The notes under the pieces are model-generated. The model was not told the DNA's origin and did no database searches. It saw only the letters and a program-made list of their open reading frames with translations. A stretch of 64,000 nt of DNA from Sipunculus nudus (Eukaryota > Annelida > Sipuncula > Golfingiida > Sipunculidae): assembly GCA_026874595.1 (NCBI GenBank), contig CM049313.1, forward strand, positions 57,803,159 to 57,867,158, read 5' to 3'. This document shows, piece by piece, positions 5,786-63,646 of the stretch. The stretch's first letter is position 1. The number at the start of each line of letters is the position of its first letter. Position numbers and translations under genes: made by a program.

Positions 5786-6054
5786 CTGAAATAACATTTC
5801 CCTGCTTGGTTAACAATAAAATACCACTATACCTTGCTGTGTGAACCATTTTCATGAAAAAAAACAACAAGAAACAATTTTGAACAAGTGACCCATGGGT
5901 CATGACGCTCAGCTGCCAAGCATGACCTGCGACATCATGGGCTGCAATTCACAACTTCTAGTAAAATTGTTGCAGAACCTATATGCCAATTTTGTTTAAA
6001 CTTTCTACATTGCCATAAATTCTTATCATATATGTCTGGTTAAAACATGGTGAA

Positions 6055-8001
6055 CTAGATATTTCTTGGCACCGCAGGTGCCATAGTATCCCCAGACAAT
6101 TAATCCCCCCCCCCTTTAAGAATAGGCCCCCCATCTTCAGCAACAATTAATATCAGACCACACTCATAGAAAAGGTCATTCTCATAGAAAAGGTCATGAT
6201 CCAAATTTCAATATACATCATCCCCTAACCCATGTCTATGTATATGCAAGAAATCTGTCCATTAGTTTTTGACTTATAATGCTCACAATACTGTTAAGTG
6301 GCAATGATGGGGTATTAAACGGCACGAAAACAAGTAAAAGAATAACAGGTGGCACCACCTGTTTCCTGTACATGACAACACTATCCAAGATCTTCGTTCA
6401 AGTTGATTTTTGGACCAATCAATGCATCCCTTATTGAGAAATTAATGATTTTGTGTGATTTTCACCATATATGGCAATATTCAAGGTCAAGGCCACTCAT
6501 TGGAAAGGTCATGACCCCTATTCAAATAAACATTATCCTATAACCCATATCCATGTATATGCATAATATGAAAGAAATTTGTCCATTAGTTTTTGACTTA
6601 TAATGCTCACAGTACTGATAAATGGCAATGATGGGGTATTAAACGGCACAAAACAAGTAAAAGAATAACAGGTGGCGCTACCTGTTTCCTGTACATGACA
6701 ATACTTTCCAAGATCTTCGAACATGTTGATTTTTGGACCAATGCATGCATCCCTTATTGAGATATTAATGATTTTGTGTAATTTTCACCATATATGGCAA
6801 TATTCAAGGTCAAGGCCACTCTAATAGGAAAGGTCATGACCCCAATTTATATATACATTATCCCATAACCCATGTCTATGTATATGCATAATATGAAAGA
6901 AATCTGTCCATTAGTTTTTGACTTGTAATGCTCACAGGTTATAAATGTACTGTGAAGTGGCAATGATGGGGTATTAAACGGCACGAAAACAAGTAAAAGA
7001 ATAACAGGTGGCGCCACCTGTTTCCGGTACATGACATTACTATCCAAGATCTTCGGTCAAGTTGATTTTTGGACCAATGCATGCATCCCTTATTGAGAAA
7101 TTAATTATTTTGTGTGATTTTCACCATATATGGCAATATTCAAGGTCAAGGCCACTCACTGGAAAGGTCATGACCCCTATTCAAATAAACATTATCCTAT
7201 AACCCATATCCATGTATATGCATAATATGAAAGAAATTTATCCATTAGTTTATGACTTATAATGCTCACAGTACTGATAAATGGCAATGATGGGGTATTA
7301 AACGGCCAGAAAACAAGTAAAAGAATAACAGGTGGCGCCACCTGTTTCCGGTACATGACATAACTATCCAAGATCTTCGGTCAAGTTGATTTTTGGACCA
7401 ATGCATGCATCCCTTATTGAGAAATTAATGATTTTGTGTGATTTTCACCATATATGGCAATATTCAAGGTCAAGGCCACTCTCATAGGAAAGGTCATGAC
7501 CCCAATTTAAATAAACATCATCCCATAACCCATATCTATGTATTTGCATAATATGAAAGAAATCTGTCCATTAGTTTTTGACTTATAATGCTCACAGTAC
7601 TGTCAAGTAGCAATTTTGGGGATATTAAATGGCATGAAAACAAGTAAAGCATAATAGGTGGCGCCACCAGTTTCTGGAACATGACAACCCTATCCATGAT
7701 CTTCGATCAACTTGATTTTGGGATCAATCCATGCAAGTTTTCTTGAGATATTTAAGAATTTGTGTGATTTTCCCCAAAATTGAACCTATTCAAGGTCAAG
7801 GTCACTCTCCTAGTTGAGGTCATGACCTCATTTTAAATAGGCGTTGTCCTCTCACCCATATCTATACATATACCAAGTTTGGTAAAGATCTGTGAAATAT
7901 TTTTTGAGTTATTGTGTCCAAAAGAAATCTCTGCGGCGGCGGCGGCAGCGCGACTGTGCCTAAACCATAGTATCTCCAGACTATGTCTGGCGATACAATG
8001 A
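6055..8001 (-). mobile_element. Helitron-like element nested in 5885-10208
   Basis: Read on the minus strand the 3' end is GGCACC-TGC-GGTGCC (a 6-bp-stem hairpin), nine bases, CTAG, then host T, which is the textbook Helitron terminus. The 5' end at 8001 is TCATTGTATCGCCAGAC preceded by host A, so the element sits at an A/T dinucleotide. GTATCGCCAGAC at the 5' end is matched inverted by GTCTGGGGATAC next to the 3' hairpin. A GCC/GGC-rich patch lies near the 5' end at about 7931. About five units of 325-333 bp fill the middle (6130-7870), several carrying CAGGTGGCGCCACCTG. No coding capacity. Confidence 0.72.
6130..7870. repeat. Tandem array of about 5.3 units, 325-333 bp
   Basis: GGTCATGACCC-type unit starts recur near 6191, 6506, 6831, 7164, 7491 and 7818. 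Shared landmarks are CCATTAGTTTTTGACTTATA, GGGGTATTAAACGGC and the palindrome GGTGGCGCCACC (perfect at about 7007 and 7331). The first and last units are the most diverged, as expected of an array that expands from its centre. Confidence 0.8.
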
Positions 8002-9169
8002 TGGTCTGAGGCAAAATGTATGGTTGTTGAGCTATCAGGAACTAATCCCACAGCTTGCTCGATACCTGTCAGTCTCAAAAGGAATACCACACAGGCCACA
8101 TATAAGGTCAAAATATAGCAAAAGATCAAGGAAATCCATGCAAGAATTATTGTGAAACGGGTGCTTCCATATTATTTTTTATTCAATTCAAGCCAACTGT
8201 ACTGAGCTTTCATAAATGATGGTCATATTTATTAAGAAATCTTTGACCCAATGCAAGATTACATTAATATACATCCCACTGCATTCACTTTAATAGTTCT
8301 TGAGATAATATGTTCTACAGGAATTTAAAGATGGCGTCCTGGTGGCCATATTGGATTTCTGACAGGTCAGAAATTGAACAACAAACATCCTCTAAAAGGT
8401 ACCAAACATCATAAAAAAATCACAGAAACTGTCCTGGCAAAAGGATTTCTAAAATGGCTACCTGGCAGACATAATGGTTTTCTGACAAGTCACACATCCT
8501 CCAATAAGACACTAAACTTGTAGCAATTGCTTCAAAGAATGTAACAGTTATGAATGTCCAAAACAATTCAAAAGGCATGATCAGGTTGGAGAGCTCTCAT
8601 ATCAGATTTATGAACATGCAAATGTAAAAAGTGCAAGTCCAATTTGTTTTAATTATCAGCTTGCTATTCAATGGGGTCAGCAGGGTAGGTAAACTGCAAA
8701 ACCTAAAAGAAAAGAAATGCAGAAAGCATCACTAAGAGTCTTGTAATCAAATAAAGCCATCCTAAATCCAGGTACAGACCCACATATTATCAGAACAAAC
8801 ACTTGCTGGTATATCTGATGATTTGTATAATAATATTCAGATATCTAGAAAACTAAGTTTATTGCTATGATTCCATGATATAAACTGCAAAATGTTCCCA
8901 TCATTTTATAAATCAGTAGCTAAACTTAACACTTAACTCTCATAGTCTTAATGCCTGGCCACAGCATTCCGGCAACAGTGTTTTTGTTATGCACTAATGA
9001 TATATTCTTATCACTCCATGAGCTGATACAAAAGGGAGTCATATATCACAAGTGTCACTGACAATTATGGGCACATAGTGAGATGTACCAGTTGTGAGTG
9101 CCATATGGATTTATATATACAAGAAAACAAGAAAAATAGAGATGGTCTACAAAATAAGTTATTGTGAAC

Positions 9170-10010
9170 ATCCCTGACCTATGACCTTGGCCTTTTGCCC
9201 ACATATCAACTGGATTCTTTCTAAATGATGGGTAACTACTAACCACTTACATCTGGCCGGGTGTAATTACTTGGCAACCAATGAGTAAATAACTTAGACC
9301 TGCAACCTTTTACCTCCTGACCAGCTGACCTCAAAATCAATTAGTTATTTCTTCATGCAAAAAGACCCATAAATATGAAGTTTGAATCAAATTCAGTGAT
9401 GCATAGATGTGGCATATGTGAAAAACTGAAGGTTTGGGTTGAACAGTTTCACTTGAAATATGTTCACAAGCATTTAGAACAATATTGTGACCTTGACCTT
9501 TGACCTTTTGAACTCAACATCAATAGGCTTCTTCTCCTATTGGTAGGTAAGCCATATATGACAGATATAAAGTATAGATTGAAAAGTTTGCTGAAAATGA
9601 CTCCACACAAGAAGAGGGTGCTGTGAACTTGACCTTTGACCTCAAAATCAACAGGTCTTTTCCCCTGTTGGCAGAGAAGCGATATCAGTGCTGAAAGGTT
9701 TAGCTTGAAATGTGTCCACAACCTTTTCAAAGAAGTGGATCCTGTGACCCTGACCTTTGACCTTGTGACCTCAACATCTATAGGATTCTTCTCCCACTTA
9801 GTAGGTGAGCTATCTGTGAAAGATCAAAGAATTGGGATGAAAGGTTTGGCTTAAAATGCATCCTGAGGCTTTTCAAAGAAGTTGGTTCTGTGACCTTGAC
9901 CTTTGACCTTGTGACCTCAAAATAATTATGGTTCTTCCCCTGTTGGTAGGTGAGCTGTATGTGGAAGATGGAAGGTTTGGGATGAAAATTTTGGCTAAAA
10001 GAATTATTTC
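9170..10010. repeat. Tandem units rich in TGACCT half-sites
   Basis: Units of roughly 115-145 bp start with TGACCTTGACCTTTGACCTT near 9488, 9628, 9740 and 9890, preceded by a degenerate one at 9175. The complementary strand reads AGGTCAAAGGTCAAGGTCA, that is, closely packed direct repeats of the nuclear-receptor half-site AGGTCA. Whether any is bound is unknown. Related units fill 56830-58310 in reverse orientation. Confidence 0.7.
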
Positions 10011-10208
10011 TGGGGGGTGCAAACACACCCCATAACTTTGAGAATATAGGTTGCAGTGACCTAATTTCAGGTTTGCAAGGAGATCTTTTTAGAACCTCTA
10101 AATCTGCTTAGGGTTCATGGCCCTAGCCCCTATGGTTACGATTTGTGCCCTGCGCCGGACAAAGACCCATCGCTATAGCCCAGCATGACTGAAAGTCAGC
10201 TGAGCTAA

Positions 10209-12154: not shown

Positions 12155-14432
12155 CAAGTGACCCATGGGTCATGACGCTCAGCTGACTGGAAAGAGATTC
12201 GCCAAAGGAAATTTTATCATCTAAATGGTAGTATAAACCCATTCAACTGAAGCATCAAACAGATTAACCAACAGGCCAAGTTTGTGACTGTATTTATATA
12301 TCTCAAAAATAGAGAAAAAATGCATAAACTTTAAAAAAAAATACAGGTGGTTCCACCTGTCTGCAGAAACTAATAAAAACACTTAATGGTCAATATCCAT
12401 GCAAAGAATCATGGTGATCTCTGGATTAGTTGTTCAGATACTTCAGCTTTTGTATCAAATTTTCCATTATTCTGAGGGATACTTTGGAGTCCTATAGCTT
12501 GAAGGATATGGGTAACAGAGACCTAATTTCAGGTTTCCATAGACACTTTTCATTGGCCTACTTGCACGACAAGAATGGAGATTCTAGGTCCTGTTGTTAC
12601 AATCTGTGCCACATTAACAGATGACAGCATCCTTAAAGGTCTCAAAAATAGAGAAAAAAATTTGTAAAAAACCCCGAACAAATACAGGTGGTGCCACCTG
12701 TCTGCACAAACTGATGAAACACTCCATAATTAATATCCATGCAAAGAATCATGGTGATCTCTGCATTAGTTGTTCAGATACTTCAGCTTTTGTATCAAAT
12801 TGTCAATTATTCTGCGGGATACTTTGGAGTCCTATAGCTTGAAGGATATGGGTAACAGAGACTTAATTTCAGGTTTCCATGAAGACTTTTCATGGGTCAC
12901 CCAGTGTGTCAAGAATGAAATTCTAGGTCCAGTTGTTATGATTTGTGCCCAATTAACAAATGTTCATATCTTTAAAGATCTCAAAAATAGAGAAAAAATT
13001 TGTAAACAAACCCGAACAAATACAGGTGGTGCCACCAGTCTGTAGAAACTGATGAAATACTCCATGATCAATATCCATACAAACAATTATGGTGATCTCT
13101 GCATTAGTAGTTCAGATACTTCAGCTTTTGTAACAATTTTTCAATTATTCTGAGCTGTACTTTGGAGTGCCATAGCTCAAAGGATATGGGTAACAGAGAC
13201 CTAATTTAAGGTTTCCATGGAGAATTTTCATGGGTCTCCCTGTGTATCAAGAATGAAGATTCTACATCCAGTCATTACGATTTGTACCCTGTTGACAGAT
13301 AACTACATCCTTAAAGGTCTCAAAAATAGAGAAAATTAATTGTAAATATTTGAAAAAATACAGGTGGCACCACCAGTCTAAAGGAACTGATGGAACAACT
13401 CTTGATCAACATGTATGCCAAAAATCATGACCATCAGTGTTGTAGTTATTGAGATGTTGCAATTTGTTTTTATCAAATTTTCCATTATTCAGGGGCGTAA
13501 TGGGGAGCCAAATAGCTCAAAGGATACGGGTAACAGAGACCTTATTGCTGGTTTCCATGCAGACTTTTCATTGGTCACTCACTGTGTGAGTAATGAAGAT
13601 TTTAGGTCCAGTCTTTACAATTTGTGCCCTGTTGACAGATGTTCACAGTTTTAAAGGTCTCAAATATAGAGAAAACAATTCGTAAAAAATTGAAAAATAC
13701 AGGTGGCGCCACCAGTCTGCAGAAACTGATGAAACATCTCATGATCAATATGTATGCAAAAAATACTGACCATCAGTGATGTAGTTAATGAGATATTGAA
13801 GTTTTTGTATGAAATTTTTGACTATGAGATATTGAAGTTTTTGTATGAAATTTTTGACTATTCTGGGGGTTACTTTGGGGCCCAATAGCTCTAAGGATAT
13901 GGGTAACAGAGACCAAATTTCTGGTTTCCATGGAGACTTATCATAGGTCTCTCAGTGTGTCAAGAATTAAGATTCTAGGTCCAGTCTTTACTATTTGTGC
14001 CCTGTTAACAGATGTTCACATTTTTAAAGGTCTCGAAAATAGAGAAAAAAAATTGTAAAAAATTGAAAAATACAGGTAGCCCCACCAGTCTGCAGGAACT
14101 GATGAAACTTCTCATGATCAATATGTATGCAAAAAATCATGACCATCAGTGATGTAGTTAATGAGATATTGAAGTTTTTGTATGAAATTTTTTATTATTC
14201 TGGGGGGTACTTTGGGGCCCCATAGCTCGAAGGATATGGGTAACAGAGACCCAATTTCTGGCGTCCAAGGAGATTTTTTATGGACCTCTCAGAATGTAAA
14301 GTTACAAGATTCTAGGTCCAGGGGTTACAATTTGTGCCAGGTTAACGGACAGACGGACGGACAGACGGACGGACGGACAGACGGACAAAGAGTGATCACT
14401 ATAGCTCAGATGACTTACAGTCAGCTGAGCTA
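12155..14432 (-). mobile_element. Complete AGCTCAG-family rolling-circle-type element
   Basis: The left terminus CAAGTGACCCATGGGTCATG with CGCTCAGCTGA and the right terminus TATAGCTCAGATGACTTACAG followed by TCAGCTGAGCTA are both intact. The right terminus folds into a 13-bp stem with one mismatch and a 3-nt loop. Just inside it lies a run of (ACGG/ACAG)n at 14345-14391. The central region is a tandem array (12300-14330). Length 2278 bp; no coding capacity. It is the cleanest single copy in the window and a good reference for the family. Confidence 0.7.
12300..14330. repeat. Tandem array, six units of about 338 bp
   Basis: CAGGTGG-type palindromes occur at 12344, 12685, 13023, 13361, 13700 and 14073 (spacing 341, 338, 338, 339, 373). 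The longer last spacing is explained by an internal duplication of about 34 bp at 13793-13860 (TTGAAGTTTTTGTATGAAAT occurs twice). Units share GGATATGGGTAACAGAGACC and ATAGAGAAAA. The palindrome is perfect (GGTGGCGCCACC) in the fifth unit and altered in the others. Confidence 0.8.
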
Positions 14433-16728: not shown

Positions 16729-17709
16729 CAAGGGACCCATGGGTCATGGCGCTCAGCTGAAGTTTGATATTTTTGCAAATGCAAAATATACAAAATATTC
16801 TATTGTAATGTTTTTCATTTATATTAGCATATGAGAAGCTAGGAGGAAAGGGGCCCTCCTACTTGATATAGTCAATTTCTAAATATATGATTGCAAAACT
16901 AATACTCTGACAAGACTGTCATGAAGAAAAACAGTAAAGTTTTGAGTTACTTTGATGCATATGAAAAAATTAATGATGGACAGGCCAGTGGACAGAATAG
17001 ACTAATAAATTTATTTCACTTTCAAAAATGCATTTACGGTAAGTTCATATATAAGCCTATTTTTTTAGCATATCCACTTTTTTCATTAATAAATTTTATC
17101 TGATTCATTTTTTTATTTACAATATTTATATTTAAAATTTGTAATAAAAAACTCTGAAAATATAAGTTAAATATCAGAATTCTAGGTTGCAATTATAATA
17201 TATCCAGAGTGTAATATCCTTGGCTAGATATAAACAACACTTGACATGGTGTATGAAAACTTGAATAAAGCCACTTTTTCAATCAATTCCTTTGAAATTT
17301 CTGATTTTAAAAGATTAATTCCTTATCTATATATGCTGTGAAAAAATTTGGGCCCATAACTTCAAAACAATGAGCAAAACTTACCTAATTTTTGGTATGT
17401 TTATAGAAAATGTACGGAAGAATATGAATACTAAATATTATCAAAAACAGATCAGGGTTTTGATATTAGGCAGCCTTGAAGTGTTACAATGGCTATTTTT
17501 ATGGAAAACTCCTTAATATCTAGAAGGAACAAAGTCCTAGTGACCCAATTTTTGGTATGGTAGGACATTTTTTTTTTAAACATCTAACAGAAAGCAAAAT
17601 TTTGGAATTGTAGGTCCAACGGTTTCAAAACATGCTCTGGTAAGGGCCAGACGGCCGACAGACAAAAGACCACAACTATAGCTCAGATGACTTATAGTCA
17701 GCTGAGTTA
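16729..17709 (-). mobile_element. Short complete AGCTCAG-family element (981 bp)
   Basis: The left end is CAAGGGACCCATGGGTCATGG plus CGCTCAGCTGA, and the right end is CTATAGCTCAGATGACTTAT plus AGTCAGCTGAGTTA. The right-arm sequence (ATTAGGCAGCCTTGAAGTGT, then GGTCCAACGGTTTCAAAACATG) is shared with the copies ending at 25264, 26375 and 35010. It lacks a tandem-repeat core, so it shows the bare arms of the family. Confidence 0.65.
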
Positions 17710-19433: not shown

Positions 19434-22400
19434 ATACATATGCAAAATTTCAGGGGGATATGTCAAATCAGTCCTAAGATATAAGCCTGAATGTCTGCAG
19501 CGTAAACATAAATGTAGGTGGCCCCACCTACATTTATGTCTGCAGCCTAAACATAAATGTAGGTGGCCCAACCTTCCACAAAATCCAGAAAGCTATCCAA
19601 GATGTATAAACATGCAAAATTTTAGGCAGATAAGTCACACCACTACTAAGATATGAGGGATTTTATCCCATGGCAGACAAACAGATGGAGGCTGTGCAAA
19701 ATTTTTTGCAGGTGGCACCATCAGTTTTGCATATGATAAAGAGCTATGTAAGATCTATACACATGCAAAATTGCAGAGGGATATGTCAAACCAGTCCTGA
19801 GATATAAACCTGAATGTCTGCAGCGTAAATATGAATATAAGTGGCGCCACCTACATTAATATCAGCAGCGTAAACATAAATGTAGGTGGCCTCACCTGCC
19901 ACAAAATCCAGAAGGCTATCCAAGATGTATAAACGTGCAAAATTTCAGGCAGAAAAGTCAAACAACTACTGAGATATGAGTGATTTTATCCAATGGCAGA
20001 CAAACAGATGGACGCTGTGAAAAAATGGTTGCAGGTGGCGCAACCAGTTTTGTGTATGATAAAGAGCTATGTGAGATCTATACACATGCAAAATTTAGGA
20101 GGATACAACAAATCAGTCCTGAGATAAAAGCCTGGATGTCTGCAGCATTAACATTAATGTAGGTGGCGCCACCTGCCACAAAATCCAGAAAGCTATTCAA
20201 GATGTATACACATGAAAAATTTCAGGTGGACAGATGCTGTGAACAAGAGACCCATGGGTCACATCGCTCAGCTGAATTTTGGAAAATATTAGTAACTGCA
20301 AAATATTTTTATTTCTTTTGTTTTTTCATGTATATTATCATTAGAAAAGCTATGAGGAAATGGCCTTGCTAAAATGAAACTCTGTAAATTATAGAATAAT
20401 TGACATGAGCTAAACCATTTAGTGATGCACCAAGGGAAAAAATAGGCCTACGTTAAGTGTTAAATAAGAGTAACATTTCATAAACATATAATGTGTGAAG
20501 GTAATTAAGTTTTCAAAAGTTAAATATATGGCCATATGAGTTAAAAATTAATCCCACAAAGTTTGACCAATATTCCTAATTTTAATACTAAGATAACAGT
20601 GTTATTCACACCTAGGCCCTGCCAACTTTAAGAGATATGAATAAAATGCTACAAAGTATTTATATCTTCTAAAATCTTGTCAGTAAGCAATTACATTAGA
20701 TCCTAATATTTTATCACATTTGAATATTAGCCGGGATTTTCTTTAAAACAAGGGACCCATGAGTCACGGCGATCAGCTGTTATATATGATAAAAAATATG
20801 ATTTGGGAAAGAGGCACATGCTTGTTTTGTGTGGTAATAAATATAAGCTTTATTATGAGTTGTTGGTTTTTAGCTTATGTATGATTTTGATAGTATCTTT
20901 GGAGACAGGGAAGAGGATTGATTTCATTTATTTTATTAACAAATGGAGTGCTACTGTCGCACAGATTTTGACTTGGCTATATAACTTATAAGCAGCACAT
21001 ATAATAAAAGAGTTTAACTATTTATTAAAATTTAATAACAAATATTGTGCCAATATAATTTTTATTTAAAAAAAATAATAAGAAAATCATATGGTTTTTT
21101 AAAATAAAATATAACTGAAATGATTATTAAAATAATATTATAGAATATATTCATGAATGCATTCATGAATACATTTTGAAAGTATCTGCACTGGTATTCA
21201 AATACTTTCATTTTGACCTGAATTCCCAGTCTTATGCAATAAAATTTTTTGATGCAGTACATATTCATATTCGTATTCAAATACATTTGCAAAGCATACG
21301 CACCATGTCTAGTATTTATTCAGTTTTAGCCAAACAATGATGATGAGAATCCAGAATATACAAAATTCACAAATTTAAATAATGATCATAAGTACCTGGT
21401 TTCATGGCTTTTATTTATATTAAAAAAAATAAATGTATTTTATTCACTTTGGACTACTTTCACAACAATCCACACACTAGACACAGTAGGAATCTAGATT
21501 AATATTATCAACTGCATCTTTGTCTATCATTAATTTCCTTCATATGATCCCTAATGATTAGTAATGAATAATATGATTTATTTTTTATCATTAAAATTGA
21601 ACTGAAAAATACCATAGGTGACTGCATGGTGTTATTTGGAATAACATTGACATTGACATTATATCCATCCATACAAGATTCTTACATGATCAGTAACTGC
21701 AAGTTAATTTTCTGTTACTCATCAACTAACAAATTCCTTTTCTATTAATTTTTCTTTAATTTGTTATTAAAAACCAATAAAAATTATTAATTTATTGTTT
21801 TTTGTTATGTTGTTTTTCAAAACAACTACTAGATGAGTTGGGTTGGACACCTTGATCAACTGTGGCTGGGCATTAGCTGCCTGGCTGCCCCAGTGTATGC
21901 CTCGCCTCAAGCATGCATAATTTGATGAAAGGTCAACAAGGTCAACATACAGGTGACTGAAGAGGGGCTGGATTAAGCCTGGGTCTGACATGGTCTCATA
22001 AAAACATTAATAAAAGCTACAATATTTGGCCAATTTCTTTCAGCTTTCTAAACTACAAAGATGAAATCCTTATGTGTGCATGTTATGAAAATTATTTCAA
22101 CAGTGCTCTCAGGAAACAAATGTGCCATGGTCAAAGTTGGGCAAAATTTAAGGTACTAATTTTATATTTATACTAATAACTTATAAAATTTGAAAAATTC
22201 AGAACTAATTTTTGGTATTTAATTGAATCTTGATTAAATAATGTTACATCCCTGACAAAAAATCTCTAGCTTTAGCAATCCTCTTGTTAAGGGAGTAAAT
22301 ATATTTCTTGATTTGTTAAAAAGTGCATTATGTTTGGGCCCATAACTTAAAACAATTACGCAATACTGACATCATTTCTAGCATGTGCATAGGGAATGTA

Positions 22401-22937
22401 TAAAAAAATATGTATATTATATATGATCAAAGTCAGATCAGTGGTTTTGATATTAGGCAGTCTTACAGTGTAACAATGGGTTTTTAATGGAAAAATGAAG
22501 TTTTTCATTAATATTTAGAAGGAATTAAGTCCTAGTGATCAAATTCTTGGCATGGTTGGGGATTTTGGAGACATCTAACTGTATGCTAAATTTAAGGAAC
22601 TTAGAGCTGAAGCTGGGGAGCTGAGCTCTAGCAAACTGCATAACACTAGCTTGATGTAAACTTGATGTGACATGGTGCTTGAAAATTTGAATAAAATCTA
22701 GTTTTTGATCAACTGGTTTTAAATTTTTGGTGTTAACAGACAAAATACTAACAAAAACATGCTGTAAAAATTAAATCCACAGTACTTACAGGAAAAAAAA
22801 CGTGCCATAGTCAAACTTTGGCAAAATTTAAGGTACCAATTTTATATTTTTGCCAATATTTAAAAAAATTCAACAGATTTTGATCTAATTTTTGGTATAC
22901 AATTAAATTTTGATCAATTTAAATTGTATTACTGAAA

Positions 22938-24790
22938 CTAGATGTGTCAGAACGACACGAATGCCCCCACCTTGGGCAAATTAGAAACATTTGTAAAATT
23001 TGGAAAATTTTTTAAGTTCAGGAGGTGTCGTATGGTCAAAAGTAGGTCAACAAGGGCAAAATGCAAACTCGATCTGTAACGGGTCATTATCAAGCAACAC
23101 ACCAAAAATCATGCCAGTATATGCAGGCATTGTGAAAAAAAAAGTCCATAAATGTGCATTTTCCATAAAAATTTCTGTCTTTCATGAAATTTTCTATGTT
23201 TAGGAGCCCTAAAACAATCAAAAGTAGGTCAACCGGGATGAAACGCAAACTCGATCTGTAACTGTCATTATCAGTACAAAAAAATCCAGTACATATGCAT
23301 TTGTTATGAAAATTTATATTTTTCATGAAACTTTCTATGTTCAGGAGCAGTCAAATGGTCAAAAGTAGGTCAACAAAACAAGAACTCGATCTGTAACTGG
23401 TCATTATCTGCCTACACACCAAAAATCAGGCCTGAATCTGCAGGCACTGCAAAAAAAAGTCCATACATGTGCACCTTTTTATGAAATTTTCTATGTTAGA
23501 GCACCGTCAAACGGTCAAAAATAGGTCAACTGGGACAAAACATGAACTTGATCTGTAACTGGTCATTATCTGCCCACACACCAAAAATCAGGTCAATATC
23601 TGCAGGTATTGTGAAGAAAAGTCTGTACAAGTGTATTTGTCATGAAAATATATATTTTACATGAAATTTTCTATGTTCAGGAGCCGTAAAACAGTCAAAA
23701 GTAGGTCAACCGGGCAAAAATGCGAACTCCATCTGTAACTGGTCAATATCTGCCAACACCAAAAATCAGGCCAATATCTGCAGGCATTGCCAAAAAAGGT
23801 CCGTACATGTGTATTTGTCATGAAATTTCATATTTTTCATGAAATTTTCTATGTTCAGGAGCCTTAAAACGGTCAAAAGTAGGTCAACCGGGACGAAACG
23901 CGAACTCAATCTGTAACTGTTCTATATCTGCCCACACACCAAAAATTAGGCCAATATCTGCAGGCATTGCAAAAAAAAGTCTGTACATGTGTATCTGTCA
24001 TGAATATTTCTATTTTTCATGAAATTTTCTAAGTTTAGGAGCCGTAAAACGGTCAAAAGTAGGTCAACCTGGATGAAACGTGAACTCGATCTGTAACTGG
24101 TCTATATCTGCCCACACACCAAAATCAGGCCAATATCTGGAGGCATTGCGAAAAAAAGTCCGTACATGTGTAACTGTCATGAATATTTCTATTTTTCATG
24201 AAAATTTCTAAGTTTAGGAGCCGTAAAACGGTCAAAAGTAGGTCAACCGGGACGAAATGCGAACTTTATCTGTAACTGGTCTATATCTGTCCACACACCA
24301 AAAATCAGGCCAACATCTGCAGGCACTGCAAAAAAAAAGTCCGTACATGTGTATTTGTCATGAAATTTCATATTTTTCATGAAAATTTCTAATTTTAGGA
24401 GCCGTAAAACGGTCAAAAGTAGGTCAACCGGGACATATGTGAACTCGATCTGTAACTGGTCTATATCTGCTCACACACCAAAAATCAGGCTAATATCTGC
24501 AGGCATTGCGAAAAAAAGTCTGTACATGTGAATCTGTCATGAATATTTCTATTTTTCATGAAATTTTCTAAATTTAGGAGCGGTAAAACGGTCAAAAGTA
24601 GGTCAACCGGGACGAAAGCGAACTCGATCTGTAACTGGTCTATATCTGCCCACACACCAAAAATCAGGCCAATATCTGCAGGCATTGCGAAAAAAAGTAC
24701 GTACAACTGTTTGATTTCGGAATGACGGAAGGACGGAATGAAGGACATGGGTAAAACTATATGCCCCGGCCACTTTGTGGGGGGGCATAA
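22938..24790 (-). mobile_element. Nest level 4: Helitron-like element with ATGCCCCC ends and a 180-bp array
   Basis: Read on the minus strand the 3' end is GGGGGCATTC, hairpin GTGTC-GTTCT-GACAC, AT, CTAG and host T. The 5' end (24790) is TTATGCCCCCCC with a GGCCACTTTGTGG-type inverted stretch. Insertion is demonstrated by the intact paralogue at about 25925-25945: host ATTACTG-AAA joins directly to AAAGTCCTT. Length 1853 bp. It carries about ten tandem units (23000-24700). Confidence 0.75.
23000..24700. repeat. Tandem array of about ten units, period about 180 bp
   Basis: GGTCAAAAGTAGGTCAAC recurs at about 23034, 23215, 23357, 23513, 23693, 23871, 24051, 24230, 24411 and 24591 (spacing 181, 142, 156, then 178-181). 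Units share CTCGATCTGTAACTGGTC and TCTGCAGGCATTG. Two early units are shortened by internal deletion; the later ones are the most regular. Confidence 0.85.
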
Positions 24791-31591: not shown

Positions 31592-31638
31592 TTGTATCCG
31601 CCAAAACAGAGTTTTGCGGATACTATGTTTTCAGCTGG

Positions 31639-31675
<37 letters not shown>

Positions 31676-46151: not shown

Positions 46152-46157
<6 letters not shown>

Positions 46158-49828: not shown

Positions 49829-49906
<78 letters not shown>

Positions 49907-50050: not shown

Positions 50051-50122
50051 CAATTTACTGAAACAATAAGAAACTATCAAGTATCATTTTTGTTGAAGTC
50101 AATTAACTGCAATCATATATAA

Positions 50123-50127
<5 letters not shown>

Positions 50128-50196
<69 letters not shown>

Positions 50197-51927: not shown

Positions 51928-53374
51928 TTGTATCCGCCAAAACAGAGTTTTGCGGATACTATATGTTTTCAGCTGCACGCCACCGCCGCCGCGTAGGTGT
52001 CCGGAGAACTCCTCCATAACTGCTGGGCGGAATTTTACGAAACCAGGGATTATGTTGGGGTCACATGTGAACTGCTGCGCCCCGATTTTGTTTTGACCTC
52101 TGACCTTTCCTCTGCGCTCTGCGTCCGTTTGTGCGTCTGTTTCCACACATAAACCCACATATCTCGGGAACCATTTGACCGATCAGGAAATTTTTTTGCA
52201 CAAATGTAGCCCTTGGAGAGCTTTATAACATACACAAAAAATGGTGGTGCCACCTGCAACCATGTTTGCACAGTGTCCATCTGTTCGTCTGCCTTGGGTT
52301 AAAATCACTCATATCTCTGCAGTGACTAATTCACCTGAAATTCGGCATGCGTAAACATCCTGGATAGCTTTTCTGATTTTATGATAGGTGGCGCCACCTA
52401 CATTCACGTTTACGCTGCAGACATCCAAGCTCATATCTCGGGAACAGTTTGACCGATTGGGCCAAAATTTTGCATGTGTATAGATCTCACATAGCTCTTC
52501 ATCATACGCAAAACTGGTGGCGCCACCTGCAGCCATTTTTGCACAGTGTCCATCTGTAAGTCTCCCTTGGGTTAAAATCACTCATATCTCTGCAGTGACT
52601 TGACTAATTCACCTGAAATTCGGCATGCGTATACATCCTGGATAGCTTTTCTGATTTTATGACAGATGGCGCCACCTACATTCATGTTTACGCTGCAGAC
52701 ATCCAAGCTCATATCTCGGGAACCGTTTGACCGATTGGGCCAAAATTTTGCATGTGTATAGATCTCACATAGCTCTTTATCATACGCAAAACTGGTGGCG
52801 CCACCTGCAGCCATTTTTGCACAGCTCCTGTCGGTTTGTCTGCGATGGGATAAAATCACTCATATCTCGTCAGTGGTTTGACATATCTGCCTAAAATTTT
52901 GCAGGTTTATACATCCCCGACAGCTCTCTTGATTTTATGACAGGTGGCGCCACCTGCATTCTAGTTTATGCAGCAGACATCAAAGCTCATATCTTGGGAA
53001 CCGTTTGACCGATTGGGCCAAAGTTTTGCATGTGTATAGTTCTCACATAGCTCTTTATGATACGCAAAACTGGTGGCGTCACCTGCAACCATTTTGCTCA
53101 GCGTCTATCTGTTTGTCTGCCACGGGCTAAAATCACTCATATACATGTAGTGGTTTGACTTATCTGCCTTAAATTTTGCATATGTATACAACTTGGACGG
53201 CTTTCTGGATTTTGTGGTAGGGGGGGCAACCTACATACACAATTTGGCTGCAGACATCCATGCTAATATGCAACACTCTATTTCCCCTTGCTACTCAATC
53301 CATGCCTCATTTCACCCGTTCCACTCTGATTTAGGCGGATACACGTAGTCGCTTGTCGACTACCCGTATTCTAG
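51928..53374 (+). mobile_element. Helitron-like element, GTATCCGCC family
   Basis: 5' TTGTATCCGCCAAAACAG after host A; 3' GGCGGATACA, hairpin GTAGTCG-CTTGT-CGACTAC, CCGTATT, CTAG and host T. The first 150 bp and the last 100 bp are nearly identical to 31592-33432, so the copies are recent. It has fewer 280-bp units (1447 bp in all) and an unexpanded GCC patch at about 51979. Confidence 0.8.
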
Positions 53375-55031: not shown

Positions 55032-56107
55032 CTATAGTTGTGGTCCATCTGTCCATAGATCTGGCACGTTTTGAAACCTTAAGACCTAGGAATCCGAAAT
55101 TCGGCATAATGTTAGATGTCCCCAAGATCTCCAACCAAGTCCAAAACTGGGTCTTTGCGACTTCATTCCTTTGAGATATTAAGAAAAACCTTAATTTTTT
55201 ATTATAAACCTATTTTCACACTTCAGGACTGCCTAATATCAAAACCACACATCTGTTTTTCCTAATATTTACCATAAATATTCCTCTATATAGTTCCTAT
55301 GTACATGCCAGAAATTAGGTCTATATTTTATAATTTTAATAAGTTATGAGCCCAAACAATGCATTTTGCAAAAAATTCAGGAAGGATATTTGATCACTTA
55401 ACGCAAAACATGTTAAAGCTAAGGACTTTTTTCTAGTATTATAACTTTAATTAATCAAAATTAAATTGTATAACAATAATTAGATCAAAATCTTTTAAAT
55501 TTATAGCTCAGCTGACTGTAAGTCAACTGAGGTATAGGAATGGTGCTTTGTCCGTCTCGGCATCCAGGCGTCCGACAGTCCGTTAGCAGGGCACAAATCG
55601 TAACTGCTGGACGTAAATAAGTGAATATCCAGGGAGGTCAATAAAAATCTCCTTGGAAACCTGAAATTAGATCACTGCCACCTATATCCTCTGAGCTATG
55701 GGGCTTGAAAGTACCCCACAGAATAATCAAAAATATAATACAAAACCTCCAATATCTTGATAATTAATGTATGGATTGTCATGAATTTTGCCTTGAAAAT
55801 TGAGCATGACTAGTTTTGTCCATTCCTGAAAAGTGGTGGCACCACCTGTATTTTTTGTTATTTTAATGAATATTTTTTAATAATTTTACTATAAAATGAC
55901 AACAATCATGTCAGTTTCTCAGCTGTAAATACATCTAGTGTCCCAAAACTTGGTGTGTTTATTGATCACAAGTGGATGCCATATAGTTATCACCCTGTCT
56001 GCCTGTTTGTCTGTCTGTCTGTCCATCCACACAAATTCATTTCCAGATGATAACTCCAGGTTGTATTGATAAATGGATTTCAAACTTGACTTACATATGG
56101 CCCACCA

Positions 56108-56804
56108 TACGCTCCCGAGGCAGCGGAAATCTTGCGCTTCTAAAGAAGCAACTGATTTTCACGCTGCCAGCTGTGACCGTTTATGATATATTTAGACACC
56201 AGATGGCGGTTCGTTGTCCACTGAAATAAATGTGCGTATGATGTGACAAGCAGCCAATCAGATGCCAATAAACAAACACTCGACAGGCATCCTGGCTCCG
56301 CCCATTGCTGCGCTTCAAGCGTCGCTTGACGATTTTTCCGGTCGAATTTAAATTGCTCCCTCTGCATTCTCGCATCATCGACTATGACATTATGACATTA
56401 TGACTGTGTTAGCGTAGCCATGTATCTGTTGTCTGCAGAACTGAAACCATCCAGCGAGGTGCACGCAGCCTTTGTTGTTACGTTTCGTTTGAATTACAGC
56501 TCACCGGCCGAGCATCCTATGCGCCCAAGGCCTTAAGCAAACCACGTCAGGGGCAATTCTCTCTGAGCCTGTGGCCTGTTCAGACGGTTACGCTGGGGGA
56601 TGAGCTGTCACTCAAAAAGAAATGAATATGATTGGCTCCGTGTATTCCTCGCTTGGCTTTGTCTTCCACCACAAGGTCTCATCTGATTGGACAATAATAC
56701 AGTGCTCCCCTCTGGTGTTGCAATTCAGGATACGAGGTCATAACAAACAGCGCCTTACGATATAGGTAGTAGCCCTATAGGTAAAGCGCTGTGTAAAGAG
56801 CGTA
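56108..56804 (-). mobile_element. Right nest, level 3: second copy of the TACGCTC-ended transposon
   Basis: TACGCTC at 56108 and GAGCGTA ending at 56804 are flanked by a perfect 9-bp repeat GGCCCACCA (56099-56107, 56805-56813). Removing the insert restores the phrase ACTTAYATATGxCCCACCACTAAAGTAAG found unbroken at about 57056, 57390 and 58033. It is the inverse of 36708-37409 along its whole length, with scattered differences and small indels. Confidence 0.75.
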
Positions 56805-56829
56805 GGCCCACCACTAAAGCAAGAACCTT

Positions 56830-58310
56830 TATGATTTTGGGGTCATGAGGACAAAGGTCAAGGTCACAGGACTCACTTTTTTAAAAAGATTATGGCTGCA
56901 TTTTAAGCCAAGCTTTTCATCCCACATTTAGCTGACTTGCCATTATGGGGAGAGCATTAATGAATTTGAGGTCACATGGTCAAAGGTTAAGGTCACAGGG
57001 GCCATCTGTTCACAAAATCCAGTTTAGTTTGACATAGTGGTTTCAAACCTAACTTATATATGACTTACCACTAAAGTAAGAAATGTGTGGATTTTGGGGT
57101 CCAACGGTCAAAGGTCATGGTCACAGGACTAACTTTTTCAAAAAGATTATGGCTGCATTTTAAGCCAAGCTTTTCATCCCAAACTTTCCATCTTCAACTG
57201 TGTACCCACTTATTTTTGAAAGATTGTGGATGCATTTTAAGCCAAACTTTTCATCCCACATTTAGCTGACTTGCCATTATGGGGAGAGCATTAATGAATT
57301 TGAGGTCACATGGTCAAAGGTCAAGGTCACAGGGGCCATCTGTTCACAAAATCAAGTTTAGTTTGACATAGTGGTTTCAAACTTAACTTATATATGACTC
57401 ACCACTAAAGTAAGAACTGTGTGGATTTTGGGGTCCAACAGTCAAAGGTCATGGTCACAGGACTCATTTCTCTAAAAAGAATACATATGTATTTGAAGCC
57501 AAACTTTTCGTCCCAAACCTTCCATCTTTAACTGTGTACCCACTTATTTTTGAAAGATTGTGGATGCATTTTAAGCCAAACTTTTCATCCAAAACCTTCC
57601 ATCTTCCAAGTATAGCTGAGCTGCCAATAGGGGAAGAACCTGATTGATTTGGGGTCACAAGGTCAAAAGTCACAGGGACCCATCTGTCCACATTTTTGTA
57701 CCTGGATGATAACTCCAGTTTGGATTGACATATTGGTTTCAATTTTGACTTATATATGACCCGCCAATAATGTAAGAACTCTTTAGATTTTGGGGTCATC
57801 GGGCCAAAGGTCAAGGTTACAGGACCCACTTCTTTAAAAGGATTATTGATGTATTTTAAGCCAAACTTTCTGTCTCAAACATTCTATCTTCCAGATGTTG
57901 CTCACCTGCCAAAAATGGAAGTAACTGATGGATTTTGGGGTCACAAGGTCAAGGTCATGGGGGCCATCAATCCACATATTAGTTTCCAGATGATAACACC
58001 AGTTTAGTTTGAAATATTGGTTTCAAACTTGACTTATGTATGCCCACCACTAAAGTAAGAACTGTTGATTCTGGGGTCATGAGATCAAAGGTCAAGGTCA
58101 CAGGACCCACTACTTTAGAAATTTTGTGGATGCATTTTAAGCCAAACTTTTCATCTCAATCCTCCCATCATCAACATGTGGTGCACCTGCCAATAGGGGA
58201 AGTTTCCTTTTGATTTTGGGGTTATAAGGTCAAAGGTTAAGGTCACAGGGCCCATCCATTCACAAATTAGTTTATTAATGATAACTCCAGTTTGGGTAGA
58301 CAGGTGGCTT
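56830..58310. repeat. Tandem units rich in AGGTCAAAGGTCA-type direct repeats
   Basis: GGTCAAAGGTCAAGGTCACAGG and variants occur near 56864, 56977, 57107, 57312, 57440, 57655, 57800, 57945, 58083 and 58225. Larger units of about 300-360 bp alternate two half-units (CACCACTAAAGTAAGAA and CCAATAGGGGAAG). Confidence 0.7.
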
Positions 58311-59201
58311 CAAACTGATCACAGGACCAATATTTTGGAAAACCTCATAAACATATATCCTTATAGACAAATGCAGCTGAGCGTTGAGACCCATGAGTCC
58401 CTAGTTTAAAATATTAGCAAAAATAAAAAAAATTGATACCTTAAATTTTGCCCAACTTTGACCAAGGCACTTTTTTTCCTGTAACTGCTGTGGATATAAT
58501 TTTCACAGCATGTTTTTGTTAGTGTTTCATCTGTTAACACCAAAAATTTGAAACCAGTTGATCAAAACTGTAGATTTTATTCAAGTTTTCAAGAACCATA
58601 TCACATATTGTTTACATCAAGCTAGTGTAATGCAGTTTGCTAGAGCTCAGCTCCCAAGCTTCAGCTCTCAGTTCCTAAAATTTGACATACAGTTAGATGT
58701 CTCCAAAATCCCCTACCATGCCAAGAATTTTGTCACTAGGACTAAATTCCTTCAAGATATTAATGAAAAACTTCATTTTTCCATTAAAACATGTTGTTAC
58801 ACTTCAAGACTGCCTAATATCAAAACCACTGATCTGACTTTGATCAAATATAATATACATATTTTTAAATACATTCGCTATGCACATGCCAGAAATGATG
58901 TTAGTAAAGTGTACTTTTTTTAAGTTATGGGCCCAAACATAATGCACTTTGTAAAAAAATTAAGAAATATATTTATTGCCTTAACAAAGGGATGGCTGAA
59001 GCTAGAGATTTTTTGTCAGTGATGTAAAATTATTTAATCAAGATTCAATTGTTAACCCAAAATTAGTTTTGGATTTTTCAAATTCTATAAGTTATTAGTA
59101 TAAATATAAAATTAGTACCTTAAATTTTGCCCTACTTTGACCATGGCACGTTTGTTTCCTGTGAGTACTGTTGATATAATTTTCATATCAGCCACACATA
59201 A

Positions 59202-59538
59202 GGCCAAAATAAAAAAAAAGTATGGTTCTCAGGCATTTTTTTTCAGAAATCAATGTGGGCGGGCGCTTTTTTTATTTTAATTTTTTTGGTATGTTTCAAT
59301 TAAAATGTCAAATGATAAGGGAAAAGCATGAAAATAACAGTTTTATTTTGCTAAATAATTAAAAGCACTACAAAACAAAGGAAATTGTATGGTTTTATCT
59401 TCTTGAAAGAAATGTCGAAGCAGCATCTGCTCAAAATTGGAAAGTTTTTATTAAAAATCAAAATAAAAAGTTTTGATGCGGGGGTTTAAAATTGATGCGG
59501 GCGGTGCCTGAGAACCATACCTTTAATTTTTTTTGGCC
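59202..59538. mobile_element. 337-bp PIF/Harbinger-type MITE in the right nest
   Basis: Terminal inverted repeats GGCCAAAATAAAAAAAAAGT and (reverse complement) GGCCAAAAAAAATTAAAGGT continue into ATGGTTCTCAGGCA. TAA flanks both sides (59199-59201, 59539-59541). The empty site exists in the paralogue near 22070 (GAAATCCTTATGTGTGC), so the insertion and its 3-bp duplication are shown directly. A TAA/TTA target and GG-starting ends are the PIF/Harbinger signature. Confidence 0.75.
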
Positions 59539-60876
59539 TAAGGATTTCAGCTTTTAGTTTAGAAAGCTGATAGAAATTGGCCAAAAATTGTAGCTTTTAT
59601 TAATGTGTTTATGAGATCATGTCAGACCCAGGCTCTCCCCAGCCCCTCTTCAGTCACCTGTATGTTGACCTTTTGACCTTTCAGCAAATTATACACGCTT
59701 GAGGCGAGGCATACACTGGGGTAGCCAGGCAGCTTATGGCCAGCCACAGTTGATCCAGGTGTCAAACCCTACTCATCTAGTAGCTGTGTCCAACAACATA
59801 ACAATAAACAATAAATTAATAAATTGTTATTGGTTTTTAATAGCAAATTAAAGAAATATTAATAGAAAAGGATTTTTAGCTGATGAGTAACAGGAAATTA
59901 ACTTGCAGTTACTGATGATGTAAGAATCTTGTATGAATGGATAGAATGTCACGTATTCCAAATAACACAATGCAGTCACCTATGGTATTTTTCAGTTCAA
60001 TTTTAATGATTAAAAAAATAATTCATATTATTCATTACTAATCATTAGGGATTCTATGAAGGAAATTAATGATAGACAAAGATGCAGTTGATAATTTAAA
60101 TCTAGATATCTACTGTGTCTAGTGTGTAGACTGATATGAAAGTAGTCCAAAGTGAATATATTACATTAATATAAATAAATGCTATAAAACCAGGTACTTG
60201 TGATCATAATTTAAATTTGTGAATTTTGTATATTCTGGATTCTCAACATCATTGTTTGGCTAAAACTGAATAAATACCAGACATGGTGTGAATACTTTGC
60301 AAATGTATTTGAATATGAATATGAATATATACTGTATAAAATTTCTTGCATAAGAATGGGAATTCAGGTAAAAATGAAAGTATTTGAATACCAGTGCAAA
60401 TACTTTCAAAATGTATTCATGAATGCATTCATGAATATATTCTATAATATTATTTTAATAATCATTTTTGGTTATATTTTATTAAAAAAATATGATTCTC
60501 TTATTATTTTTAATAAAAATTATATTTGGCACAATATTTGTTATTAAATTTTAATCAATAGTTAAACTCTTATATTATATGTGCTGCTCATAAGTTATTT
60601 GGCAAAGGCAAAATCTCTGTGACAATAGCACTCCCATTTGTTATCAAAATAAATGAAATCAATCCTCTTCCCTGTCTCCAAAGATACTTTCAAAATCATA
60701 CATAAGCTAAATACCAACAACTCATAATACAGCTTATATTTATTACCACACAAAACCAGCATGTGCCTCATTTTCAAATCATATTTTTTTATCAAATATA
60801 ACAGCTGAGTGCCGTGACCCATAGGTCCCTTGTTTTCATAATTATTATAACACAAAAGTAATGTATAGTCATATTG

Positions 60877-61701: not shown

Positions 61702-61789
61702 ATGGCTTCAACTGACAATGATCAGAATGAGGCTGACCTTGAGGTTGCGACCCTTCTGGCAGCTTCCAGTGCCGCGGAGTTATCATCAG
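61702..61789 (+). CDS. First coding exon of an unrecognised gene running off the right edge
   Basis: An ATG in good context (A at -3, G at +4) opens 29 codons plus one base. It is preceded seven bases upstream by a strong acceptor, a long T-rich tract ending TTTTTTTCAG at 61685-61694, and followed by a donor, CAG/GTTTGT at 61790. The acceptor implies a non-coding 5' exon further left. The peptide starts MASTDNDQNEADLEV and then runs into an Ala/Ser/Leu-rich stretch; it is acidic, has no signal peptide or membrane segment, and looks like a disordered N-terminus of a cytosolic or nuclear protein. Base composition is clearly less A+T-rich than its surroundings. The downstream intron contains the 62194-63646 mobile element, and no second exon is visible before 64000. 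Seen: frame, splice sites and start context. Inferred: that it is a real gene. Product not recognised. Confidence 0.6.
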
Positions 61790-62193
61790 GTTTGTAATAA
61801 ATAATTCAGCAGAAGAATGTTCACAGTAATCACCACAGCAGATATACTGGTAAAATGTGACAGAAGGCATAATGTATAAGATACCATCTCCAGCGTGACA
61901 GGTTACTCCGGTTACACTGTGAGTCTAACACTAACAGATCTTGAATAAACAAGCTTCTCTAACAATTCCAGTAGGAACAATGCCACACTGCCACTCTCTG
62001 TATATTTTCTGCATTGTGCAAACCACACTGATCTGTAGGTTCAATCGCCACAAAAGTCCAGCATCCTAAAACTTGTCAGTAAAGTAAACTTCCCCGGCAA
62101 GGCTTTTCTAATTACTTGATGCATACACAAAATATACAAAATTATTTTTTGGGTGCACTTTTACATACATAAATGATGCCTCCCTCATAATAT

Positions 62194-63646
62194 TTGTATC
62201 CGCCAAAATGAAGTTTTGCGGATACTATGTTTTTGACCCGGTTCTGCCACCGCCGCGTTCTTTTCCGGAGAATTCCTCTGAGACTTCTGAACGGATTTTT
62301 CCGAAATTTACACAAATTATCGGGTCACATGTGAACTATGCCTAACCAATTGGTGTTGACCTCTGACCTTTCCTCTCTGCCCAGCGTCCATTTGTGCGTC
62401 TGTTTCCACACATAAACCCTATCTCGGGAACCGTTTGACCGATCAAGAAAAACATTTTGTACAAATGTAGCCCTTGGATAGCTTTAAAACATACACAAAA
62501 AATGGTTGGGCCACCTGCAACCATGTTTGCACAGTGTCCATCTGTTTGTCTGCCTTGGGTTAAAATCACTTATATCTCTGCAGTGGTTTGACTAATTCAC
62601 CTGAAATTCGGCATGCGTATACATCCTGGATAGCTTTCTTGATTTAATGACAGGTGGCGCTACCTACATTAACGTTCACCCTGCAGACATCAATGCTTAT
62701 ATTTCAGGACTGGTTTGACGTATCTTCCTGAAAATTTGCATGTGTATAGATCTCACAGATCTCTTTATCATATGAGAAACCAGTGGCGGCACCTGCAACC
62801 ATTTTTGCATAGCATCGGTCTGTTTGTCTGCCATGAGATATAATCACTCATATCTCGGCGGTGGTTTGACATATCTGCCTCAATTTTTGCGTGTTTATAC
62901 ATCCTGGACAGCTTTCTTGATTTTATGACAGGTGGCGCCACCAACATTTTAGTTTACGCTGCAGACATCAAGCTCATATCTAGGGGACCGTTTGACCGAT
63001 TGGGCCAAATTTTGCATGTGTATAGATCTCGCATAGCTCTTTATCATTCACAAAACTGGAGGGGCCACCTACAACCATTTTTTCACAATGTCCGTCTGTT
63101 TGTCTGCCCTGGGCTAAAATCACTCATTTCTTGGCAGTGCTTTGACTTATCTGCCTAAAATTTTGCGTGTTTATATATCTTAGATAGCTTTCTCAATTTT
63201 TTTGGCAGGTGGCGCCACCTACCTTTATGTTAATGCTGCAGACATTCAGGCTTATATCCTAGGACCGGTTGGACATATCCCCCTGAAATTTTGCATGTGT
63301 ATAGATCTTACATAGCTCTTAATCATATACAAAATTGGTGGAGCCACTTGCCATCATTTTTGCACAAGTCCTTCTGTTTGTCTGCTGTGGGATAAAATCA
63401 CTCATATACATGTAGTGGTTTGACTTATTTGCCTTTAAATTTTGCATATGTATACAACTTGCACAGCTTTCTGCATTTTGTGGTAGGTGGCGCAACCTAC
63501 ATACACATTTTGGCTGCAGACTTCCATGCTAATATGCAAAACACCTCACTCTATTTCCCCTTGCCGCTCAATCCATGCCTCACTTCACCGTTCCACTCTG
63601 ATTTTTGCGGATACATGTAGTCGCTTGTCGACTACCTGTGTTCTGG
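62194..63646 (+). mobile_element. Helitron-like element, GTATCCGCC family, older copy
   Basis: 5' TTGTATCCGCCAAAATGAAG; 3' GCGGATACATG, hairpin GTAGTCG-CTTGT-CGACTAC, CTGTGTT, CTGG and T. The terminal CTAG has become CTGG. It is more diverged than 31592 and 51928. The core keeps GGTGGCGCCACC at about 62935 and 63210. It sits in the first intron after the 61702-61789 exon. Confidence 0.75.

Follow-up and report, generated by a model that had tools for sequence, protein, structure and literature searches.

The stretch of DNA analyzed here, called the window, comprises 64,000 nucleotides of the genome of the annelid Sipunculus nudus (contig CM049313.1, positions 57,803,159 to 57,867,158 of the forward strand; coordinates below count from the first base of the window). 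It carries copies of four families of transposable element, A, B, C, and D, with one terminal plan: a palindromic subterminal repeat at the 5' end and an inverted copy of that repeat upstream of a 3' hairpin. We consider families A to D to be non-autonomous Helentrons (HINEs; rolling-circle elements of the Helitron2 type) moved by related autonomous Helentrons, with a probability of about 0.9; this figure covers the class of element and not the strand-exchange step discussed below. The half-sites, hairpins, CTAG or CTTG ends, and host T that a first-pass annotation had listed for the four families are all present at the window copies. The window contains no open reading frame (ORF) of 200 codons, no tRNA detected by ARAGORN, and no Rfam match at the gathering score.

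Read in the direction of the element, family A starts after a T with GTATCCGCC and ends with GGCGGATAC, a hairpin, and CTAG, followed by T. Families B (start GTATCGCCAGAC, end GTCTGGGGATAC) and C (start ATGCCCCC, end GGGGGCAT) likewise close with a hairpin, CTAG, and a following T, and family D (start AGCTCAGCTGACT, end TCAGCTGAGC) closes with a hairpin, CTTG, and T. The first-pass annotation regarded the four families as unrelated in sequence; this is true of C and D, whose half-sites differ from those of A and B and from one another, but the half-sites of A (GTATCCGCC) and B (GTATCGCC, GTATCCCC) are similar. Most 3' ends have the expected terminal letters, CTAG (34) or the variant CTGG (1) among 35 A ends and CTTG (24), CTAG (9), TTTG (1), or CTTT (1) among 35 D ends, so the CTAG/CTTG rule holds for most ends rather than for all. 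The copies and ends assigned in the window are as follows.

31594..33432, plus strand: family A non-autonomous element, from the 5' hairpin to CTAG; ends match the genome-wide A family.
31594..31623, plus strand: family A 5' hairpin, with an 8-bp stem, a bulged C, a 5-bp stem, and a 3-nt loop; DNA fold of -10 kcal/mol, with 0 of 200 shuffles as stable.
33385..33432, plus strand: family A 3' end, with half-site GGCGGATAC, hairpin GTAGTCG/CGACTAC, and CTAG, by motif and fold (1 of 200 shuffles as stable).
51930..53374, plus strand: family A element, by end motifs.
62196..63646, plus strand: family A element with the CTGG variant at its 3' end, by end motifs.
27363..28440, minus strand: family A copy, with its 3' end at 27363; of its 5' hairpin just the inner half is present, near 28440; putative pairing.
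26922..26959, minus strand: 5' end of a further family A copy, by end motif; its 3' end was not found.
6055..7996, minus strand: family B element within a D copy; empty site in L009 at 98% identity.
22938..24788, minus strand: family C element within a D copy; empty sites in L026 (85%) and at window positions 25856-26004 (82%).
5885..10206, minus strand: family D element containing the B element; putative pairing of ends, no empty site found.
12155..14431, minus strand: family D element; partial empty site in L032 (77%).
16729..17706, minus strand: family D element; no empty site found.
20749..25262, minus strand: family D element containing the C element; a match in L026 spans the site but has another 9-base gap; putative pairing of ends.
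20244..26373, minus strand: outer family D element in A-type tandem repeats; putative pairing of ends.
34976..35008, minus strand: family D 5' end without an assigned 3' end, by end motif.
55505..60832, plus strand: family D element with a diverged 3' end; putative pairing, weak spanning match in L032.

Several first-pass positions change with these assignments. The A 5' motifs begin at 31594, 51930, and 62196, the earlier positions having included two flanking T. Position 27363, listed as an A half-site, is not a 5' end but the 3' end of a minus-strand A copy; the listed D half-sites 5885, 12155, 16729, 20244, and 20749 are the 3' ends of minus-strand copies. The D 5' palindromes lie at 10205, 14430, 17706, 25262, 26373, and 35008 (minus strand) and at 55506 (plus strand), 55032 is a D fragment without a palindrome, and an additional diverged D 3' end lies at 60832 (plus strand). 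The elements reported at 6055-8001 (B) and 22938-24790 (C) are present with bounds of 7996-6055 and 24788-22938, each inside a D copy.

Boundaries, target site, and class of the elements

A T follows the 3' end in all 74 cases examined (A, 35/35; D, 35/35; C, 3/3; B, 1/1). Across the genome, the D end CTTG has a T after it in 6,547 copies and some other base in 61. On the 5' side, the flanking base is T for all 18 forward A copies and for 8 of 9 D copies. These flank counts exclude rows of identical context, and the 5' counts (18 of 35 A rows and 9 of 18 D rows) also exclude reverse-strand self-matches of the palindrome and more diverged rows.

For the empty-site test, the flanks of an element were joined and uninterrupted relatives sought. 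Six of 11 window constructs gave a spanning match: those for B (L009, 98% over 160 bases; L061, L038, and L085, 81 to 86%) and C are clear, that for the D copy starting at 26373 lies in A-type repeats, and those for the D copies starting at 25262 and 14430 and for the plus-strand D copy are weaker. None was found for three A copies and two D copies of the window. Among 11 further A loci, 5 gave a spanning match; the empty site has exactly TT fewer than the filled site in four (L009, L018, L033, and L038, the match for L018 being its own tandem array) and eight bases fewer in the fifth (L026). No target duplication beyond TT occurs at the clean empty sites. A TT target without a longer duplication is thus clear for A and B, whereas for C and D it is blurred somewhat by T runs and diverged relatives; the main text of Thomas et al. 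(2014, PMC4067079) describes the same ambiguity for Helentrons, with at least two T on each side. Canonical Helitron1 elements (5' TC start, no 5' hairpin, A/T insertion) were rejected as an assignment since 5' hairpins are present and the flanks are T and T.

We searched the 1.43-Gb genome for exact end patterns of A, B, and D, with the same patterns read backwards as a control. The A 3' pattern has 4,560 matches and the B 3' pattern 3,303; the 5' patterns of B have 881 (type B1) and 3,225 (B2), the D 5' pattern has 25,310, and a narrower D 3' pattern for one subtype has 6,547. Every reversed control gave 0, and with 881 to 25,310 exact matches against none a chance origin of the ends was rejected. 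Because the 3' pattern is the narrower one, the excess of D 5' ends over exact D 3' ends does not so far indicate one-ended copies. As a test of chance, a permissive de novo scan of the window performed poorly: it gave 11 candidate 3' ends (4 from true complete copies) compared to 0 to 5 in 20 Markov sequences, and the reversed window gave 999 and 79 raw, undeduplicated hits.

Together, boundaries at palindromes, mostly with CTAG or CTTG, and the lack of a duplication beyond TT agree with the earlier view of these families as rolling-circle elements. That view had presented the parallel across families as the point of interest; this plan is, however, how Helitron2/Helentron elements and their non-autonomous HINEs are defined in the literature. 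The parallel therefore reflects membership of a known kind, and A to D are new members of an element kind whose design was known before. According to the papers cited here, Helentrons and HINEs likewise have 5' palindromic subterminal repeats, an inverted copy near the 3' end, a 3' stem-loop, a T-rich target (two or more T on either side), a Rep-helicase-endonuclease partner, and, in some copies, tandem repeats (PMC4067079); our comparison with that paper is one of plan. Helitron2 has a 5' repeat 0 to 2 bp from the end in a hairpin and a 3' repeat upstream of the 3' hairpin (Bao and Jurka 2013, PMC3627910). The eleven Cg_HINE elements of the Pacific oyster follow one plan, with an 11- to 12-bp repeat and an adjoining complementary repeat on the left, tandem repeats in the center, a 3' palindrome, a TT target, and no duplication, and several of them carry GTCY-type microsatellites (Vojvoda Zeljko et al. 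2020, PMC7492417). Ends of a similar type occur in Fusarium elements (PMC5148889). Which autonomous elements mobilize the oyster HINEs was left open in the oyster study; in contrast, D and C ends are found here beside autonomous-type genes. What our analysis adds is the set of candidate partners for D and, less firmly, for C, together with a flaw in the 5' hairpin that the 3' half-site mostly pairs across.

Short, high-copy elements with inverted repeats near both ends also recall cut-and-paste miniature inverted-repeat transposable elements (MITEs), and elements of the present kind were once filed as such (PMC7492417, PMC4067079). We reject this classification as highly improbable: the ends of an element are unlike each other and their inverted repeats asymmetric, no duplication beyond TT occurs at clean empty sites, and D and C ends lie beside Rep-helicase-endonuclease genes, as described next.

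Candidate autonomous partners

A genome-wide search with the PF14214 profile, in which 150 of 195 candidates were scored, gave at least 143 Rep matches. We examined the 3' side of 40 Rep loci, picked non-randomly for long frames and variety, and classed 37 by helicase-endonuclease similarity into a D clade (21 loci), an E02 clade (15 loci), and C (1 locus). The unclassed loci are L053 and L077, with no endonuclease match, and L085, with a 27-residue match, which does hold D ends. Two loci, L067 (446 bp) and L072 (66 bp), have too little downstream sequence to show an end.

A D 3' end lies downstream of the endonuclease match, in the same orientation, at 16 of 21 D-clade loci versus 0 of 15 E02-clade loci (Fisher 3e-6). 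Its distance from the match is 990 to 992 bp in subclade D1 (5 loci), 494 to 614 bp in D2 (8 loci), and 237 to 337 bp in D3 (3 loci), a constancy within subclades that is expected if the end belongs to the element. At L057, which encodes a single divergent Rep (34% identical to D and 46% to E02), a C 3' end lies 346 bp downstream of the endonuclease match. Two D 5' ends, either of which may be that of the E05 element, are found upstream of the gene at the E05 locus, the one D locus searched far upstream.

The encoded proteins have the expected domains. The D-clade ORF E05 matches Helitron_like_N (4e-27), PIF1 (5e-23), and DUF6570 in Pfam; the C and D3 Rep stretches match Helitron_like_N, and an ORF in the C 3' region matches Pif1_2B. 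The HUH motif is present in E05, E02, E04, the C Rep, and the D3 Rep, and the paired-tyrosine motif (Y-x3-Y in E05) in the three read that far (E05, E02, and E04). An endonuclease is clear in E02 (Exo_endo_phos, 4e-12), and the C-terminal parts of the D and C proteins align with the E02 protein. With this endonuclease-like region the D and C partners are Helentrons and not the endonuclease-free Helitron2.

On an endonuclease tree of 34 loci, 17 of them labelled (L053, L077, L085, L072, and L078 were too short to include), end types D1, D2, D3, and C need 3 changes, the minimum, and none of 200 shuffles did as well. The 3' hairpin also shows a paired change, GGCCC/GGGCC in D2 versus GACCC/GGGTC in D1 and D3. 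The first-pass annotation had proposed that the families co-diverged; the fit of end types to the tree demonstrates association and not adaptation, since linked descent alone would give the same result, and near-copies do cluster by descent. D1 and D3, whose Rep domains share 73% identity, have kept the D half-site CAGCTGAGC, whereas the Rep of 34% identity goes with another half-site; sequence therefore seems to play a part as well. Because D, and C at one locus, are linked to one Rep-helicase-endonuclease superfamily, a single transposase type is likely; the companion proposal of an enzyme recognizing structure is doubtful if structure alone is meant. Candidates for the autonomous Rep/helicase elements with matching ends that the first-pass annotation suggested seeking have thus been found from sequence, largely for D and tentatively for C, with none for A or B at the Rep loci examined. 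These links tie an abundant HINE family, and C at one locus, to candidate autonomous Helentrons of the same genome and make the D and C partners pairs of enzyme and substrate that are open to test.

Several observations weigh against these assignments. Five D-clade loci (L054, L059, L064, L067, and L069) have no same-strand D end in the examined stretch; L059 has one on the other strand. The evidence for the C partner is a 3' end at one locus, where the frame stops before the end of the endonuclease match. Direct Pfam endonuclease matches fall under the 24.5-bit cutoff for D (24.2 bits, 3e-5) and C (20.3 bits, 5e-4), D2 is weakly supported on the tree (68/88), and L057 and L049 form long branches. 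The D 3' hairpin folds no better than shuffled sequence (83 of 200 as stable). Finally, no autonomous partner for A or B was found at the 40 Rep loci: the one A end seen next to a Rep gene belongs to a short A copy that lies upstream of the E05 ORF, and no B end was seen.

The longest coding stretch within 1.5 kb upstream of 30 A 3' ends, in three frames, is 119 codons, which argues against an A partner in those upstream stretches. A joint scan for 5'/3' inverted repeats at three Rep loci gave many short repeats and no clear end pair, and a de novo end scan with strict criteria yielded a single, chance-like candidate at E02, with nothing at E04 or E05. Conceivably, A and B are moved by E02-clade Helentrons whose ends lie beyond the examined stretches, a suggestion to which we give rather less than even odds. 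The Rep of C, which is also CTAG-ended, is nearer to E02 (46%) than to D (34%), and the 15 E02-clade loci carry none of the end types A to D in the examined stretch; searches for their own ends by motif and by copy comparison were negative, the closest copies being homologous to the limit of the sequence examined. On the other hand, no A or B end was seen at the E02-clade loci, for some of which up to 6.7 kb downstream was examined.

Other features of the Rep loci were observed. L001 and L002 hold decayed Rep genes with HUH-like stretches that resemble canonical Helitron1. L045 to L048 (G000:C7:31571448-31588400 and its C11 counterpart) represent two E02-clade loci that are about 97 to 99% identical over most of the stretch, with tandem repeats on both sides, and are either very long recent elements or a segmental copy. 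E05 (L043/L044) encodes a herpes-tegument-like deubiquitinase domain (Herpes_teg_N, 1e-11) and E02 (L039/L040) an OTU protease domain; both kinds of protease domain are known in Helentrons, as described in the text of PMC9741609.

A kept flaw in the 5' hairpin and the matching 3' half-site

Folded as DNA, each of the four 5' ends from the window forms an outer stem, one flaw (a mismatch or bulge), an inner stem, and a 3-nt loop. The stems are 8 and 5 bp around a bulged C in A, 5 and 6 bp around a G.A mismatch in B, 7 and 4 bp (5 bp in the L012 copy) around the flaw in C, and 6 and 5 bp around a C.T mismatch in D. The flaw is kept in 18 of 18 A copies examined. Among the D matches listed it is kept in 100 of 100, the partner base being T in 97, A in 2, C in 1, and the pairing G in none. 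Type B1 keeps it at 48 of 50 places listed, the other two being perfect palindromes, and B2 in 29 of 29 rows (those of 100 with letters), with no perfect palindrome; 19 of these 29 rows read GTATCCCC-A-GAC AAA GTC-G-GGGGATAC, with the flaw at a position other than that in B1. Listed letters for D, B 3' ends, B1, and B2 were counted by eye.

The 3' half-site has the base that pairs at the flaw in 33 of 35 A ends and 34 of 35 D ends, and the C half-site at L057 has it relative to the 5' end of L012, another element. In 8 of 8 comparisons, some of which share an arm, the duplex of 5' arm and 3' half-site is the more stable one, exceeding that of the two 5' hairpin arms by 0.3 to 4.4 kcal/mol. For B, the half-site base among 100 matches listed is G in 66, C in 27, T in 5, and A in 2. 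A later prediction for this family, that the G type belongs to a subfamily (B2) with 5' arm GTATCCCCAGAC and an imperfect partner, was borne out (the 3,225 matches above). Of 100 listed 3' ends, all on one chromosome, 59 could be paired with a 5' end at most 4 kb away (for 45, at most 2.5 kb away), and the two sites, mostly 1 to 3 kb apart, covary: arm/half-site pairs are G-C in 18, C-G in 31, G-G in 7, C-C in 0, and others in 3 (Fisher 2e-9, a value computed over non-independent events, which a few ancestral changes may explain). Also among B2 copies, five same-strand 5' ends spaced by 2.6 to 2.8 kb lie at G000:C1:1407723-1418682, with one B 3' end among those listed (1418170) between the fourth and fifth; this is perhaps a head-to-tail array, as from rolling-circle copying past the end.

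In the Helitron2 proposal, pairing of the 5' and 3' repeats destroys the 5' hairpin and sets the replication endpoint, and compensatory changes were described in one pair of families (main text of PMC3627910). Pairing of the 3' half-site through the flaw fits this published idea. Starting from the observed ends, the TT target, and the Rep-helicase-endonuclease genes with D ends and, in one case, a C end, we suggest that the enzyme of related autonomous Helentrons would nick and copy one strand and insert it at a TT target, with Rep recognizing the 5' and 3' hairpins. Once the 3' end is single stranded, its half-site could pair with the 5' arm through the base left unpaired in the 5' hairpin; the hairpin would open, and the meeting of the two ends would mark the stop of copying (after Bao and Jurka 2013). 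The flaw would give this exchange an energetic direction, downhill. We advance the strand-exchange step itself tentatively. It is possible, at rather less than even odds, that Helentron ends form a one-way strand-exchange switch, with a 5' hairpin imperfect by one base and a 3' half-site complementary across that base. Arrival of the 3' end might then always open the 5' hairpin, a rule that would span families of different sequence and apply twice in B, at two flaw positions; we hold this generalization no more firmly. An imperfect 5' hairpin with a complementary 3' half-site makes the 2013 proposal on the end of copying testable, with several natural substrates.

The strand-exchange reading faces a number of contrary findings. 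Our first prediction for B, a half-site C in most copies, failed. A G in the B arm faces a non-pairing G half-site in 7 of 25 cases, and at least four B 5' ends were each paired with two 3' ends. In the window B copy the flaw is not healed, although pairing still gains 1.2 kcal/mol. The healing G is missing from two A 3' ends, and the flaw in C is known from two differing 5' copies. The lists for D and B cover the first matches along a single chromosome, found with patterns that fix most of the hairpin.

The main rival, which we find credible if still short of an even chance, holds that the kept flaw is a protein-recognition feature: Rep would read the unpaired base of the 5' stem, and 3' pairing would be incidental. 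The bacterial IS200/IS605 (such as IS608) and E. coli TnpA-REP systems offer a precedent, as their HUH enzymes recognize an imperfect single-strand hairpin with an unpaired stem base (PMC8266576); they have no helicase, and the likeness is one of mechanism only. What seems crucial for TnpA-REP is that the bulge is unpaired and not which bases form it, and the transposases of IS608 and ISDra2 touch a stem base that is unpaired or mismatched, but a second REP group has perfect palindromes (PMC8266576). In favor of recognition, the mismatched base in D varies among T, A, and C while the mismatch stays. Recognition alone, however, leaves unexplained both the pairing base at the flaw in the 3' half-sites of A, B2, D, most B1, and C at L057 and the covariation of B arm and half-site. 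Strand exchange and enzyme recognition of the flaw may both apply.

Alternatively, the 3' half-site would preserve the original 5' sequence, and the 5' partner arm would have drifted in an ancestor, leaving a nonfunctional flaw that was copied along. Family copies stem from few ancestors, so a chance flaw would appear in nearly all of them, but a flaw is present in every family looked at (A, B1, B2, C, and D), and its position in B2 differs from that in B1; we consider drift unlikely.

We found no mention of a kept stem flaw in the accessible literature on Helitron2, Helentrons, and HINEs, a search that lay outside subscription journals and figures, and the feature may be published. The word "mismatch" has no occurrence in the main text of PMC3627910, nor do "mismatch" and "bulge" in that of PMC4067079.

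Elsewhere in the window, positions 44573-46183 and 49796-50147 consist of long AT dinucleotide runs, partly with GGGATAA-type interruptions.

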